A stretch of 32,154 nucleotides of DNA from a virus: IMG/VR virus record IMGVR_UViG_3300035704_000385, positions 1 through 32,154 of that record; one strand, 5' to 3'. Of this stretch, positions 1,584 to 30,126 are shown piece by piece (the stretch's first letter is position 1; each line of letters begins with the position of its first letter). The translations under genes and the position numbers were made by a program. Below the pieces are notes generated by a model. The model did not search any database and was not told where the DNA came from. It saw nothing but the letters and a program-made list of their open reading frames with translations.

Positions 1584-1605
1584 AATCAAGAAAAAATAAT
1601 TGATT
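1584..1605. promoter_or_regulatory. Candidate operator, AATCAA-N10-TTGATT
   Basis: AATCAA at 1584-1589 and TTGATT at 1600-1605 are inverted halves separated by 10 bases. The left half extends to AATCAAGAAAAAA, the same 13 bases found at 2226-2238 beside the repressor gene. The right half runs into the first possible start codon of the small gene at 1604, so a bound repressor would cover its start. This is an inference from motif recurrence near a repressor gene. Confidence 0.45.
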
Positions 1606-1936
1606 GACGATCAAAACGATTGACGTTAAATCTCTTCACAGGAAAGGTAGCAGAACTAAACTTACAGAAAGGTTGCTTTCCGTGGCACAAGAATATCAAG
1701 AAATCGTTGAAGAATTGTTCGGCTTGTCCGAAGCGTTGGAAATTTTCGGCAATGCCGCGGTCTCCGGTGTGACCCCGACGGCTGCCACCTCGCTTCTGGT
1801 GGTCAGCAGGCGGCTTGGCAACATCGCGGACAATATTAGCAAAGATCTTTATGGTTCTGCTAAGATAGATTCAGAAGCTGGTGAATCCATTGCGGCAGGC
1901 CGGACGGATCCCCGCAATATATCCAGTCTAGAGTGA
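1604..1936 (+). CDS. Small unknown protein convergent with the repressor
   Basis: An ORF of up to 110 aa that starts with TTG directly after an in-frame stop at 1601. I do not recognise it. It has a basic N-terminus (KSLHRKGSRTKLTERL), then a helical, acidic stretch (EYQEIVEELFGLSEALEIF) and a second helix (LVVSRRLGNIADNISKDLYG). There is no membrane segment and no clear HTH. The start is uncertain: GTG at 1682 has AAAGG 9 bases upstream, a better ribosome site than the TTG, and would give an 84-aa protein. Its 3' end overlaps the repressor gene on the other strand by 77 bases (1860-1936), so transcription of one would be antisense to the other. Its place suggests a small phage regulatory or antirepressor-like role, which is unproven. 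Confidence 0.45.
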   Translation: MTIKTIDVKSLHRKGSRTKLTERLLSVAQEYQEIVEELFGLSEALEIFGNAAVSGVTPTAATSLLVVSRRLGNIADNISKDLYGSAKIDSEAGESIAAGRTDPRNISSLE

Positions 1937-2135
1937 CGCCGTACAAGCGATGCAGTTGGCACATCGCATATTGATCGGGGTAGTTCTTCCCCATTTTCCA
2001 ATTGTTGAAGACGGCGTCTGAAACGCCCAGGAGTTCGGCCAATTTCTTGTTGTTCAGGCCGCGTTCTCGTTCCAAAATATCAGCGATTTGTGCAAGATTT
2101 TCGCAGGACATTTTGCGGTGCTGCAGTTTGTTCAT
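1860..2135 (-). CDS. XRE-family HTH transcriptional regulator (phage repressor type)
   Basis: A 91-aa protein with one helix-turn-helix of the Cro/CI type. Residues about 13-50 carry ENLAQIADILERER, then NNKKLAELLGVSDAVFNNWKMGK, where LAELLGVSDAVFNNWK is the HTH with the recognition helix around VFNNW. The tail LDWIYCGDPSGLP is typical of short XRE regulators of alphaproteobacterial phages and plasmids. There is no cleavable C-terminal peptidase domain, so control by RecA-driven self-cleavage is not expected from this protein alone. The ATG at 2135 is preceded by GGGAGGGA, a strong ribosome site. It is divergent from the phage genes to the right, the normal layout for a lysogeny repressor, with an inverted-repeat operator between them. 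Confidence 0.88.
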   Translation of the reverse strand: MNKLQHRKMSCENLAQIADILERERGLNNKKLAELLGVSDAVFNNWKMGKNYPDQYAMCQLHRLYGVTLDWIYCGDPSGLPQWIHQLLNLS

Positions 2136-2210: not shown

Positions 2211-2247
2211 TTTTTTTCTTGATTCAATCAAGAAAAAAATCTTGATT
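2211..2247. promoter_or_regulatory. Candidate operator: 14-bp perfect inverted repeat centred on GATTC
   Basis: TTTTTTTCTTGATT (2211-2224) and its exact reverse complement (2226-2239) flank a single C at 2225. A third half-site, CTTGATT, follows at 2241-2247. The site lies between the divergent repressor (start 2135) and GcrA-like gene (start 2280 or 2262). The centre contains GATTC (2221-2225), a GANTC motif, the target of the CcrM methylase in alphaproteobacteria. The placement fits binding by the XRE protein; the methylation idea is an inference. Confidence 0.6.
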
Positions 2248-2279: not shown

Positions 2280-2681
2280 ATGGCAAAAGTGAATCAACGG
2301 CGCTGCCATTTTGGGCGTTCTGACGTGGCGTCACCAAAATGCCCGGACCGAACCGGGGGAACCGGCTATACCGGAGAGGGGGCGGGGGAACGGCCCGCCG
2401 CCAACCGCGCCTGCGGCGCGGGCGGGTTCGGCATGGCGCCGGCCCCCGCTGACGCTGGGCCGTTGGAAACATCCATCCGGAATATTCTGAACGTACCTGA
2501 CATACCGTTTGAGCCCGGCCCGCGGCCGCGGACCTGCCAATGGGTCACCAGCGAGGGGGCGCCCTGGACGTTTTGCGACGCACCCGTGGCGCATGCCGGC
2601 AGCTCGTTCTGCGCGCACCATCATGCGCGCGCCTGGTACATTCCGCCGCCCAAAGCGCCAGGAAGCGCCCCTTCGGCGTGA
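2280..2681 (+). CDS. GcrA-like protein, C-terminal domain only
   Basis: A 133-aa protein whose last 50 residues match the C-terminal part of GcrA, the alphaproteobacterial cell-cycle regulator. RTCQW (about 85-88), then PWTFCDAPV with Cys99, then SSFCAHHHARAW with Cys111 and His113-115. In GcrA this region binds the sigma70 region of RNA polymerase. The N-terminal HTH of GcrA (W-T-x-E-R-V type) is absent; instead residues 1-60 are low-complexity, Gly/Ala/Pro-rich and probably disordered. I chose ATG 2280, which follows a G-rich ribosome site, over ATG 2262, which has only T-rich sequence upstream. The true start could even be ATG 2433. It is the first gene of the rightward operon, so it may steer host RNA polymerase to phage or host promoters. 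The family assignment of the C-terminus is fairly secure; the role is inferred. Confidence 0.75.
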   Translation: MAKVNQRRCHFGRSDVASPKCPDRTGGTGYTGEGAGERPAANRACGAGGFGMAPAPADAGPLETSIRNILNVPDIPFEPGPRPRTCQWVTSEGAPWTFCDAPVAHAGSSFCAHHHARAWYIPPPKAPGSAPSA

Positions 2682-2736: not shown

Positions 2737-3276
2737 ATGCCGGACAAGGAAAGCTTTGTGCCGCAGGGCTGTGTGGCCCGGAGGCGGCGTGGAACCATGA
2801 CTTTGCAGCTGACCGCGGATTATATCGGCCGGCGGATTGAGCATGCCGGCGCCGTCATGCGCTGTCTGTGCGTGAAGCATCCGAGCACGCTGCTCGCGCA
2901 AGGGCGCGCGCTGATGGTCCGTGAGGCGCTGGAGGGATATGCAGCCAGCGGCGATTCGCGCGCCTATCCCATGCCCAGCGCACGTGATGTATCGCTCATG
3001 GATGAGGCGCTGTCTTGGATTTTGTTGATTCCCAACCAGACGAAGCGCCGCGTGGTGTCGCTGCGCTCGCAATATCATCCGCTCCGCGAGCGCCACGTGA
3101 TGAGCTGGCGTGCCTGCGGAGAAAAATTGCGGATCTCGGACAAAAGTGCGCAGCGCTGGCACGCTGAGGCCTTGATTCTTTTGCAAGCGGCGCTGGCGGG
3201 ATGGGAGGTGAAAAATCCCGCCGGCTGCCGTGTGCTGGCGGAGCACATCAGTTTGGGGTGGTTGGAGGAGGGCTGA
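2737..3276 (+). CDS. DUF6362-like HTH protein
   Basis: A 179-aa protein starting at ATG 2737 with AAGGGAG about 8 bases upstream; the longer frame upstream has no ribosome site and overlaps the GcrA-like gene. Residues 81-152 (ARDVSLMDEALSWILLI, then SWRACGEKLRISDKSAQRWH) resemble DUF6362, a family of small phage proteins with a sigma-region-4-like HTH. The HTH lies at about 122-145. A second possible start, Met21 at 2797, coincides with where many family members begin (TLQLTADYIGRRIEHAGAVM). It sits between the GcrA-like regulator and the terminase, so a late-gene activator or packaging-related DNA-binding role is plausible. The family call comes from recognition, not a search. Confidence 0.65.
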   Translation: MPDKESFVPQGCVARRRRGTMTLQLTADYIGRRIEHAGAVMRCLCVKHPSTLLAQGRALMVREALEGYAASGDSRAYPMPSARDVSLMDEALSWILLIPNQTKRRVVSLRSQYHPLRERHVMSWRACGEKLRISDKSAQRWHAEALILLQAALAGWEVKNPAGCRVLAEHISLGWLEEG

Positions 3277-3479: not shown

Positions 3480-3489
3480 TTTCTTGATT
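3480..3489 (+). promoter_or_regulatory. Third copy of the TTTCTTGATT motif
   Basis: TTTCTTGATT here is identical to the left half of the operator at 2215-2224 and to the reverse complement of 1584-1593. It lies 90 bases before the small terminase start. It is a half-site only; no inverted partner is seen within 30 bases. It may let the XRE repressor silence the late operon as well. Confidence 0.4.
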
Positions 3490-3579: not shown

Positions 3580-4191
3580 ATGCCATCATCACGATCCATC
3601 AGGGGCTCGCCGTCGGGCCGCGTTCGCATGTCACAGTGTGGGGGGACGGATGCCCCGGATGAGGCCCGGAGTGCCGTGGTGGCGCGGGCCGGACGGCCGG
3701 AATGGCTCGCGCTGTTGGCGCAGGTGGCGCCGGACGTGGCCCGCTTGCTGGCGCCGTCGGCGCCACCGGCACTGGACCAGGACAAAACCTTGCGTGACCG
3801 GCGCACCGAAGAGCTGATCGCCCTGCTGGATGACGGATGGTTTCTGGTGGACATCGCCCGTTTATGGGGCTGCGGCCGCAGCGGGTTGAACGCCTGGATC
3901 GCCCGGGACAGTGAACGCGTCGCGCGCGCCCGGCTGTCGCGCAAGCAGGTCTCGGACCTGTGGGCGAAAGCGGGTATGCAGATGCTGGTGTGGGCGGCGT
4001 CAGATAAAAACGAGCTCAAACGTGCGATCGAGATTGCCAATTACTGCAAATGGATGGCGAGCAAGTTCGATCCTGACGCGTATGGCACGCGGGTGGCGGT
4101 GCAGAATGAGGATGAGCGGACGGCGCGTGAGTTGACCACGGCGGAGCTGATGATCATCGCCAATGGCGGGACTCTCAAAGCCAAACCTTAA
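3580..4191 (+). CDS. terS: Phage terminase small subunit
   Basis: A 203-aa protein directly before the large terminase. The middle (LRDRRTEELIALLDDGWFLV and DIARLWGCGRSGLNAWI, about 71-107) is an HTH of the DNA-recognition type. The C-terminal half follows the pattern of Terminase_5-like small subunits: a long helix (SRKQVSDLWAKAGMQML), then LKRAIEIANYCKWMASKFDP and DAYGTRVAV, where the W-MASK-DP-YG signature is the most recognisable part. The small subunit binds the packaging start site and regulates the large-subunit motor. The start is uncertain: ATG 3580 gives the longest form, while ATG 3628 removes 16 low-complexity residues; neither has a strong ribosome site. It is separated from terL by a palindromic repeat. 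Confidence 0.85.
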   Translation: MPSSRSIRGSPSGRVRMSQCGGTDAPDEARSAVVARAGRPEWLALLAQVAPDVARLLAPSAPPALDQDKTLRDRRTEELIALLDDGWFLVDIARLWGCGRSGLNAWIARDSERVARARLSRKQVSDLWAKAGMQMLVWAASDKNELKRAIEIANYCKWMASKFDPDAYGTRVAVQNEDERTARELTTAELMIIANGGTLKAKP

Positions 4192-4210: not shown

Positions 4211-4269
4211 CTTCACCGGCACGAGCCAGACTAACAAAAGCTTTTGCGCCGCTTTTTTTAAAAAGCGGC
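4211..4269. repeat. Composite palindromic repeat, copy A (partial)
   Basis: The right end is the palindrome GCCGCTTTTT (4248-4257), TT, AAAAAGCGGC (4260-4269), preceded by the linker CTTTTGC. The left part GCCAGACTAACAAAA matches GCCCAGACTAACAAAG in copy E (30046-30061). Copy A therefore joins the left half of the central module straight to the end palindrome and appears rearranged. It fills the terS-terL gap. Confidence 0.75.
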
Positions 4270-4287
4270 CACTTTCTGACACTGACG

Positions 4288-5718
4288 GTGGGGGATTGGT
4301 TCGTGGTGGTTTCTCGCGAGGAAGCGGCGCGCCTGGTGTTGGAACGCAAGGCTGCCGGGGAGACTCTTGAAGGCTATTGCCGGGCAGTTTTGAAGGAGCT
4401 TGGGCAGGCGCCGGCGGCGCATCACTTGCGGCTGATCGCGGAACTTGACGATGTGGTGACGGGGCGGGCGGACCGGCTGCTGGTGACCATGCCGCCCGGC
4501 TCCGCCAAGTCCACTTATGGCTCCGTGCTTCTGCCCGGCTATTTTTTTATGAAGCGGCCGGGGGCGATGATGATCGGGGCTTCGCACACGGCCTCGCTGG
4601 CGGAATTGTTTTCGCGGCGGGTGATGGCGACGATCCGGGAGCAGAGGCTGGTGCTCAGCTATGGCCTGCGCAGCGAGGCCGCCGCGGGTTGGTTGACCAC
4701 GAACGGGTGCGAATATTTGGCGGCCGGCGTGCGTGGCCCGATCATGGGGCGGCGCGCGGACCTTGCGGTGATCGATGACCCGGTGAAGTCGGCTGAGGAA
4801 GCGGAAAGCCTCACCATCCGAAACAAGGTGTGGAATTGGTACTGGTTCGACCTGCTCACGCGCCTGCGGCCCGGTGGGCGCGTGGTGTTAATTATGACGC
4901 GGTGGCACGAGGACGACCTTGCCGGGCGACTGCTGGAAAACGAGTCCGGCTGGAAGGTGCTGCACATTCCGGCAGAGGCTGAGGAGAACGATCCGATCGG
5001 CCGCACGCCGGGAGAATTTTTGTGGGGCGACCAGGCGGGATTCGATTACGCTCGCGATTTGCAGCGCAAGAAAGCAGCGTATGCGGCGGCGGGACAGATG
5101 CAGGTGTGGCACGCTTTGTTCCAGGGTGCGCCGCGGACGCCAGACGGTAACATTTTTAAGGTCGCGCACATGACCACCATCGCGGCGTGTCCGGCGGGGT
5201 GCAAATGGGTGCGCGCCTGGGATTTGGCGGCGACCGCCAAGAGCGGGGACTATACGGTGGGCGCGCTGCTGGGGCGTGGGCCTGACGGAAGATTCTGCAT
5301 TGGCGACATTGTGCGTTTGCAAGGCGGCCCTGAAGAGGTGGAGCGTGTGCTCCTGGCCACGGCTTCGCGCGATCGTGCCGAGTTCGCGAATGTAACGATT
5401 TCGCTGCCGCAGGATCCCGGTCAGGCCGGGAAAACGCAGGTTGCTTATCTGACGCGCCTGCTCGCCGGTTCTCACGTCGTGTCTTCGCCGGAAACTGGCG
5501 ATAAAACGCAGCGCGCCACGCCGCTGGCGAGCCAGGTGAACGCCGGAAATGTTTCGATGGTGGCGGCGCCGTGGAACCGGGTGTTGCTGGATGAATTAAG
5601 CGGCTTTCCGAGCGCCAAGCATGATGACGCCGTGGACGCGCTGAGCCGCGCCGCGGGCGAGCTGATGGCGCCACCGACGCCGACCAGGCGCGTGCCAACA
5701 TCGTATATGATGAGGTGA
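4288..5718 (+). CDS. terL: Phage terminase large subunit (ATPase and nuclease)
   Basis: A 476-aa packaging motor. The ATPase domain has Walker A MPPGSAKS (68-75), Walker B LAVIDDP (159-165) and the coupling motif MTRWHEDDLAG (203-213). The C-terminal RNase H-like nuclease has the acidic residues Asp312 (RAWDLAAT), Asp321 (SGDYT), Asp376 (LPQDPGQAGK) and HDDAVDAL (445-452). It translocates DNA into the prohead at the portal and cuts the concatemer. The start is GTG 4288 and lacks an obvious ribosome site because the repeat lies just upstream; GTG codons at 4303 or 4306 are alternatives. All catalytic motifs are intact, arguing against simple decay of the element. Confidence 0.96.
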   Translation: MGDWFVVVSREEAARLVLERKAAGETLEGYCRAVLKELGQAPAAHHLRLIAELDDVVTGRADRLLVTMPPGSAKSTYGSVLLPGYFFMKRPGAMMIGASHTASLAELFSRRVMATIREQRLVLSYGLRSEAAAGWLTTNGCEYLAAGVRGPIMGRRADLAVIDDPVKSAEEAESLTIRNKVWNWYWFDLLTRLRPGGRVVLIMTRWHEDDLAGRLLENESGWKVLHIPAEAEENDPIGRTPGEFLWGDQAGFDYARDLQRKKAAYAAAGQMQVWHALFQGAPRTPDGNIFKVAHMTTIAACPAGCKWVRAWDLAATAKSGDYTVGALLGRGPDGRFCIGDIVRLQGGPEEVERVLLATASRDRAEFANVTISLPQDPGQAGKTQVAYLTRLLAGSHVVSSPETGDKTQRATPLASQVNAGNVSMVAAPWNRVLLDELSGFPSAKHDDAVDALSRAAGELMAPPTPTRRVPTSYMMR

Positions 5719-7182: not shown

Positions 7183-7189
7183 GAAAGTG

Positions 7190-7277
7190 GCCGCTTTTTA
7201 AAAAAAGCGGCGCAAAAAATTTTTGAAGTAGGGCCTGCGGCGGTAACACCACAACGGATTAACGCCGGGTTTTTTTG
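7190..7277. repeat. Composite palindromic repeat, copy B
   Basis: It starts with GCCGCTTTTT (7190-7199), AA, AAAAAGCGGC (7202-7211), followed by GCAAAAAATTTTTGAAG, then a diverged central part (GGGCCTGCGGCGGTAACACC) and a final GGGTTTTTTTGT. It has the same module order as copies D and E, opposite to copies A and C. It lacks the TACTTTTTG palindrome. Confidence 0.75.
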
Positions 7278-7817: not shown

Positions 7818-7839
7818 AGGAAGAAAAAGGAAGGGAAGC

Positions 7840-7951
7840 GCTACTTTTTGTGAACAAAAAGTAGCAAAAAAACGTTGTTAACTTGGGCCGTGCTGGTTTC
7901 GCTGCCTCAGGCCAAGTTAAAAGAATTTTACGCCGCTTTTTTAAAAGCGGC
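7840..7951. repeat. Composite palindromic repeat, copy C (complete)
   Basis: All three modules are present. Module 1 is GCTACTTTTTGT (7840-7851), GA, ACAAAAAGTAGC (7854-7865), a perfect 12-bp inverted repeat followed by seven A. Module 2 is TTAACTTGGGCC (7878-7889) pairing with GGCCAAGTTAA (7910-7920), with GTGCTGGTTTC in the loop side. Module 3 is GCCGCTTTT (7932-7940), TT, AAAAGCGGC (7943-7951). Its orientation is opposite to copy E. Confidence 0.85.
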
Positions 7952-10089: not shown

Positions 10090-10107
10090 AGCAGATTAAA
10101 GAAAGAT

Positions 10108-10196
10108 GCCGCTTTTTGAAAAAAGCGGCGCAAAAACCTTTGCCGGTTTGGGCTTGTGGCGTGGAAACCAGCGCGGCCCAAACTAACAAAGTTTTC
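10108..10196. repeat. Composite palindromic repeat, copy D
   Basis: The end palindrome lies at 10108-10129 (GCCGCTTTTT, G, AAAAAAGCGGC). It is followed by GCAAAAACCTTTGCC and a clear central stem, GTTTGGGC (10146-10153) with GCCCAAAC (10176-10183), then TAACAAAGTTTTCC. It has the same orientation as copy E and is very similar to it, but the third palindrome is missing. Confidence 0.8.
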
Positions 10197-29962: not shown

Positions 29963-29977
29963 AATGTAAAGAAAGCA

Positions 29978-30094
29978 GCCGCTTTTTGAAAAAAGCGGCG
30001 CAAAAACTTTTGCTCCTTTGGGCCGATGGCGGTGAAACCAGCACGGCCCAGACTAACAAAGTTTTTTTGCTACTTTTTGTTCACAAAAAGTTGC
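29978..30094. repeat. Composite palindromic repeat, copy E (complete)
   Basis: Module 3 is at 29978-29999 (GCCGCTTTTT, G, AAAAAAGCGGC). Module 2 is the stem TTTGGGCC with GGCCCAGA and GAAACCAGCACGG in its loop, then ACTAACAAAG. Module 1 is GCTACTTTTTGT (30069-30080), TC, ACAAAAAGTTGC (30083-30094), with one mismatch. Read on the minus strand it matches copy C over nearly its whole length. Confidence 0.88.
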
Positions 30095-30126
30095 CTTCTT
30101 CTTCCTATTCCCTAAGGAAATCATTG

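Follow-up and report, generated by a model that had tools for sequence, protein, structure and literature searches.

GcrA is a sigma2-binding cofactor of sigma-70 with two separable parts, a DNA-binding domain (DBD, residues 1-45) that reads methylated promoters and a sigma-interacting domain (SID, residues 108-173) (PMC7403470), and it has been proposed to engage sigma-70 before acting at methylated promoters (PMC7987155). Phage GcrA homologues are already known: phiCbK gp222 carries an HTH-like half (PMC3556154), and by eye we found such an N-terminal half in the GcrAs of Caulobacter phage DMCA_084, Pseudanabaena phage Pam5_57, and Synechococcus phage Ssp-JY42. Small proteins that retune the host sigma-70 polymerase include AsiA, Gp39, and P7, which target sigma4, and the sigma activators RbpA and Crl, which are cellular and target sigma2 (PMC7403470). 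Among the sigma repressors covered by a 2020 review, all but one were phage proteins and all acted on sigma region 4 (PMC7403470).

We analyzed a 32,154-nucleotide viral sequence (the whole of positions 1 to 32,154 of IMG/VR record IMGVR_UViG_3300035704_000385; hereafter the window) that encodes a small protein related to the GcrA SID. Like the HTH-bearing phage GcrAs, which often lie in an early operon after a repressor (DMCA, Pam5), it is phage-encoded with the SID at its C-terminus, whereas the HTH-like half belongs to those examined (164-235 aa) alone. It would be a small retuner of the host polymerase as well, with a proposed sigma2 target unlike that of AsiA, Gp39, and P7, and is unrelated in sequence to RbpA and Crl. 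What is new is a SID-only form that recurs in phages; we found no description of SID-only GcrA versions in the literature searched, which covered journals readable without subscription.

Gene order and the early control region

The left end of the window is apparent host DNA, with an Amidase_3 gene (1-828) and a tRNA-Pro (969-1046). Rightward from the left edge, terminase, portal, scaffold, and capsid genes lead to a Baseplate_J gene, tail fibre, and endolysin. Few genes separate the left edge from the terminase small subunit gene: the repressor, the SID-only ORF, the DUF6362 gene, and some unassigned ORFs. The features of this region are as follows.

1584..1593, minus strand: operator half-site TTTCTTGATT, from the half-site search
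1860..2135, minus strand: repressor of the XRE/CI type, transcribed away from the SID-only gene (HTH_3 3.5e-6, Phage_CI_repr 1.5e-5)
2211..2239, no strand: probable repressor operator, TTTTTTTCTTGATT-c-AATCAAGAAAAAAA, a perfect palindrome (arms of 14 bp) that is conserved in the relative L002
2280..2681, plus strand: SID-only GcrA-like ORF, 133 aa plus stop (ATG at 2280, stop ending at 2681)
2280..2486, plus strand: N-terminal part of that ORF, a MAK..RR..F..SDVAS box and then a low-complexity stretch of variable length; HTH not found
2490..2651, plus strand: conserved SID-like core, residues 71-124, with ligands C86, C99, C111, and H114
2797..3276, plus strand: DUF6362 protein, 159 aa, with a predicted sigma region 4-like domain; start set from homologues
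3480..3489, plus strand: operator half-site TTTCTTGATT upstream of terS, from the half-site search
3580..4191, plus strand: terminase small subunit (terS), from library matches
4288..5718, plus strand: terminase large subunit (terL), from library matches

The palindrome sits 41 bp upstream of the SID-only gene, between it and the divergent repressor, and its half-site was strongly over-represented in the window (7 sites with at most one mismatch against 0.87 expected; 0/100 shuffles reached 7). This layout is probably that of a CI-type operator, at which the XRE/CI repressor would bind, and thus puts the SID-only gene at the head of the lytic genes, in the place that corresponds to cro in lambda. 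The prophage is temperate and contractile-tailed, from an Acetobacteraceae-like host, and its lytic operon runs rightward from this gene. Expression of the gene probably starts, as at induction, when the repressor leaves the palindrome. We rejected another palindrome, TGACGtggCGTCA at 2321, as the operator: it had one exact copy and, with one mismatch allowed, was not above chance. Dispersed intergenic repeats of ~70-130 bp occurred in both orientations (4212-4283, 7185-7253, 7830-7951, 10096-10195, 29969-30104) and were also present in the related loci L001 and L002.

The SID-only ORF has a second possible start, an in-frame ATG at 2262. We favored 2280 because L002 has the same ATGGCAAAAG with AAGGAG, which resembles a Shine-Dalgarno sequence, ahead of the matching ATG.

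The C-terminal block and the GcrA SID

Searches with the single sequence returned little. The window protein had no match, neither HTH nor GcrA, by hmmscan against Pfam (E<=10), PHROGs, and NCBIfam, and as a direct query it retrieved nothing in phage tblastn or an IMG/VR scan. It likewise fell below the curated cut-off of the Pfam GcrA family (PF07750, 26.9 bits), with no match at E<=10 or, in a repeat run, at E<=1. An HMM built from the SIDs of 33 bona fide GcrAs reached it only at E=0.32. Close relatives in IMG/VR were L002 (full length; 11.3 bits against PF07750, cut-off 26.9) and L001 (C-terminus only), which together with the window protein form a three-member family (profile A1). A PDB sequence search with this profile gave no match, and AlphaFold2 modeled the family at a pLDDT of 32, too low to read a fold from.

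Comparison of families gave a clearer picture. The three-member profile matched the 33 GcrA SIDs at P=7.4e-6 over ~45 aligned columns, and 0/200 column shuffles that preserved the Cys/His columns reached its score, compared with 1/200 when the window sequence was used alone. The A1 profile also led to two bridge sequences, G317 (3.8e-8) and G163 (1.8e-4), both from Acetobacteraceae genomes and the latter itself a Pfam GcrA at 1.3e-9. The window block reads C-x12-C-x11-C-x2-H with W88, F98, and F110; its four Cys/His positions all align to the GcrA SID (PF07750; PDB 5yix, 7ye1), as do most of the aromatic ones, and the spacing of C-x-W, aromatic-Cys, aromatic-C-x-x-H, and A-aromatic is shared. 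Because of the profile-profile comparison, the Cys/His-preserving shuffles, and the bridge sequences, homology of the C-terminal block to the GcrA SID is well supported, and the C-terminal Cys/His block of GcrA named in the preliminary description is present as C86, C99, C111, and H114.

The resemblance is real but, judged from sequence alone, weak. The window protein keeps 8/18 of the positions conserved in canonical GcrA SIDs, which places it among the most diverged SIDs; its first inter-Cys loop is two residues shorter than in the canonical form, and the signature W-P-x-G-[DE]-P (WPxGDP) is missing, with C-Q-W-V-T-S-E-G-A in its place. The N-terminal DBD that reads m6A in GcrA is absent. 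Since it fails on the DBD, the Pfam cut-off (gathering score), and the WPxGDP motif, we classed it as a SID-homologous, SID-only protein and not as GcrA. It had also been claimed that low-complexity sequence replaces the HTH half. No HTH family was found in the window protein or L002 (hmmscan against Pfam; window at E<=10), and the N-terminal region is indeed of low complexity and GC-rich. It is poorly constrained, differs in length by 20 aa from that of L002, and carries frame-shifting indels between the two within the N-terminal/linker region, so that 'absent' may describe the HTH better than 'replaced'.

Codon comparison with L002 points to purifying selection on the SID core (dN 0.045, dS 0.65; dN/dS about 0.07), where 2, 1, and 17 differences fell at codon positions 1, 2, and 3. 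L001 and L002 differed in the core by silent changes only, with zero amino-acid changes. Constraint was far weaker over the first 18 codons (dN 0.24, dS 0.48), and the N-terminus is not clearly under purifying selection. The functional part is thus predicted to be the C-terminal ~62 residues, given selection there and both weak constraint and frame-shifting indels N-terminally.

SID-only genes and DUF6362 in other genomes

We searched sampled alphaproteobacterial and Acetobacteraceae genomes with the Pfam GcrA and SID profiles. Predicted stand-alone SIDs recurred in several unrelated alphaproteobacterial prophage loci, frequently with a CI/XRE repressor next to them. A SID-only ORF of 68 aa, unannotated, lies in the early region of the isolated Komagataeibacter phage phiKM1 (LC644974 10281-10484, equal to L136 3992-4195), where it overlaps, at its start, the end of phiKM1_180. 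It has relatives at eight IMG/VR loci, seven close (L138-L144) and one more distant (L145). The phiKM1 ORF and its prophage relatives L138-L144 are like the window gene in being SID-only, in an early operon, and from Acetobacteraceae phages; the phiKM1 ORF differs in length, linker, and neighbors, with no DUF6362.

At three further loci (L157, L165, and L198) the SID-only gene came first, with an S24-type CI repressor transcribed away from it. Two of these loci, L157 and L165, may be chromosomal instead of prophage loci; the L157 protein lies above the Pfam GcrA cut-off, and that of L198 has a canonical SID (15/18 positions, Pfam 8e-12). In L208/L183 the gene lies beside repressor and Cro-like genes. 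In L130 (in G317) the SID-only gene is part of an early operon with an HTH_31 repressor nearby; after it come an RMF-domain gene, a replication-type gene, and a terminase small subunit. In L128 (4910-5961, in G448) the SID-only gene begins right where a sigma-factor gene (Pfam r2, r3, r4) ends, a possible sigma and SID pair. In L131 (5611-8451, in G163) a SID closes a phage-like open frame of 947 aa; it may be fused to that protein or be a small gene of its own, in the same frame and starting at GTG. Short SID-only ORFs in L125, L126, L127, and L129 had no clear phage context. By eye, the N-terminal extensions of L198, L130, and L131 share a motif resembling W-x-[WFY]-P-x2-HS-x-LQRLR before the SID. 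Apparent SID-only or DBD-only matches in Rhodopila (L084, L086) and G003 (L085) lay at contig ends and were set aside as split genes, and those in L046, L010, and L068 were judged chance on inspection.

A profile of seven SID-only proteins recovered GcrA in 373/397 sampled Acetobacteraceae and 224/385 sampled class genomes; two of the seven were themselves matches to GcrA, so this recovery is not independent. Almost all members of the inferred host family, Acetobacteraceae, carry GcrA, and a target for a decoy therefore exists. The recurrence of SID-only copies suggests that phages may use the SID to take over or unhook the host transcription machinery.

DUF6362 (PF19889) matched the neighboring protein at E 9.7e-7 and 29.5 bits, just under the 31-bit cut-off, in a run on the longer frame from 2737. 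From 12 homologues AlphaFold2 modeled the protein in part (mean pLDDT 68, with ~82-93 across most of positions 60-130). Residues ~60-135 of the model can be aligned to sigma region 4; for SigD4, Z was 8.4 and the rmsd 1.6 A across 62 residues. The best Z in the fold comparison was 8.6 and all 50 matches listed were sigma or sigma-like chains, with the limit that a Z near 8 is only moderately specific for a small helical domain; Foldseek matches were weak (E > 0.5). The modeled protein looks like a sigma region 4 domain, and its position before terS would suit a late-gene regulator, making DUF6362 a candidate family of such regulators. Among 78 DUF6362 loci (the window, L001-L012, and L015-L079; 29 with at least 1.2 kb of upstream sequence), a SID-only gene lay beside DUF6362 in only the window, L001, and L002, and in L002 an ssb-like gene (1699-2109) that the window lacks separates the two. 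The complete phage phiKM1 has the SID-only gene and no DUF6362, and the 43-kb DUF6362 record G781 has no SID. On this co-occurrence we rejected a SID-only/DUF6362 partnership as a general rule. Upstream of DUF6362 on the minus strand, L003-L007 encode a small conserved Cys4 protein (MIWxCKFCRCxN...CARCGE) that resembles a RanBP2 zinc finger and occupies the place of the repressor and SID gene in the window.

Possible roles at the host polymerase

Sequence, position, and selection show the window protein to be a real phage protein of the early region: a diverged homologue of the GcrA SID that stands alone, with no DNA-binding domain. In the mechanism that we propose, the SID-only gene would be expressed early, when the divergent XRE/CI repressor leaves its operator, and the zinc-knuckle-like SID would bind host sigma-70 region 2 at the site of GcrA's own SID. 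Without a link to methylated DNA it would occupy this site non-productively or non-specifically, so that host GcrA would be competed off the polymerase or the polymerase retuned. The sigma-70 holoenzyme would then be freed from the m6A/GANTC cell-cycle programme, to the benefit of phage promoters. We regard sigma2 docking with GcrA competition as the likeliest of the readings, tentative and somewhat short of an even chance. The divergence of the window SID counts against it, and the phage GcrAs that retain the HTH-like half mean that phage use of GcrA need not be a decoy. It is possible, if doubtful, that stand-alone SIDs form a recurrent class of phage sigma2-docking proteins, placed by a CI repressor and early in lytic growth, that uncouple sigma-70 from the host GcrA/CcrM circuit in Alphaproteobacteria.

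The main competing explanation is a GcrA-derived CCCH zinc knuckle that has lost sigma binding and now engages something else, be it the repressor, a different host protein, RNA, or DNA; it could, for instance, serve beside CI as an antirepressor or as an accessory of the Cro kind. The loss of WPxGDP, the strong divergence, and the repeated placement beside CI/Cro would fit such a change, and weak Pfam matches of other SID-only proteins to the CCCH knuckles zf-TRM13_CCCH and WRC mean that the window knuckle may have another binding target. Comparably placed SID-only proteins nonetheless retain canonical SID features, as in L198 and L157, and we regard a new partner as rather unlikely. Less probable still is a co-activator, modeled by analogy on two-part phage sigma appropriation, in which the SID-like protein would bind sigma2 and DUF6362 would supply promoter recognition, directing host polymerase to phage late promoters. 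The two genes are adjacent, on the same strand, and both ahead of terS/terL, the DUF6362 model resembles sigma region 4, and the L128 gene directly follows a sigma-factor gene. Set against this are the moderate specificity of the fold match, the ssb-like gene intervening in L002, the three loci among 78, and the separate occurrence of the two genes in phiKM1 and G781. Cooperation with DUF6362 at late promoters, as first suggested for this locus, is accordingly possible for this phage, whose DUF6362 is sigma4-like by prediction, but not for the class.

Chance resemblance of a small Cys/His-rich protein would account for the absence of matches in curated libraries and for E=0.32 in the single-sequence HMM search, yet the profile-profile test, shuffles, and bridge sequences make it very unlikely. 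A functionless, decayed remnant of a full-length phage gcrA minus its HTH would explain a low-complexity N-terminus with frame-shifting indels. The frame is open in two genomes, however, and in a third as far as sequenced, and the pattern of selection (dN/dS about 0.07 in the core; zero amino-acid changes between L001 and L002 despite silent ones) disfavors decay, which we consider very unlikely as well.

If sigma2 docking is true, the region-4 sigma repressors would have an equivalent at region 2, in the form of a phage protein built on the part of GcrA that binds sigma2, and a lysis-lysogeny switch would be tied to the control of the cell cycle by methylation found widely among Alphaproteobacteria. 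The idea is directly testable because SID-only genes occur in the isolated phage phiKM1 and in Komagataeibacter prophages. GANTC was depleted in the window (69 vs 99.8 expected, sd 9.1), as expected if the host methylates GANTC. One GANTC (2221-2225) lies at the center of the palindrome at 2211-2239, 59 bp before the ATG of the SID-only gene, and its methylation might alter repressor binding.
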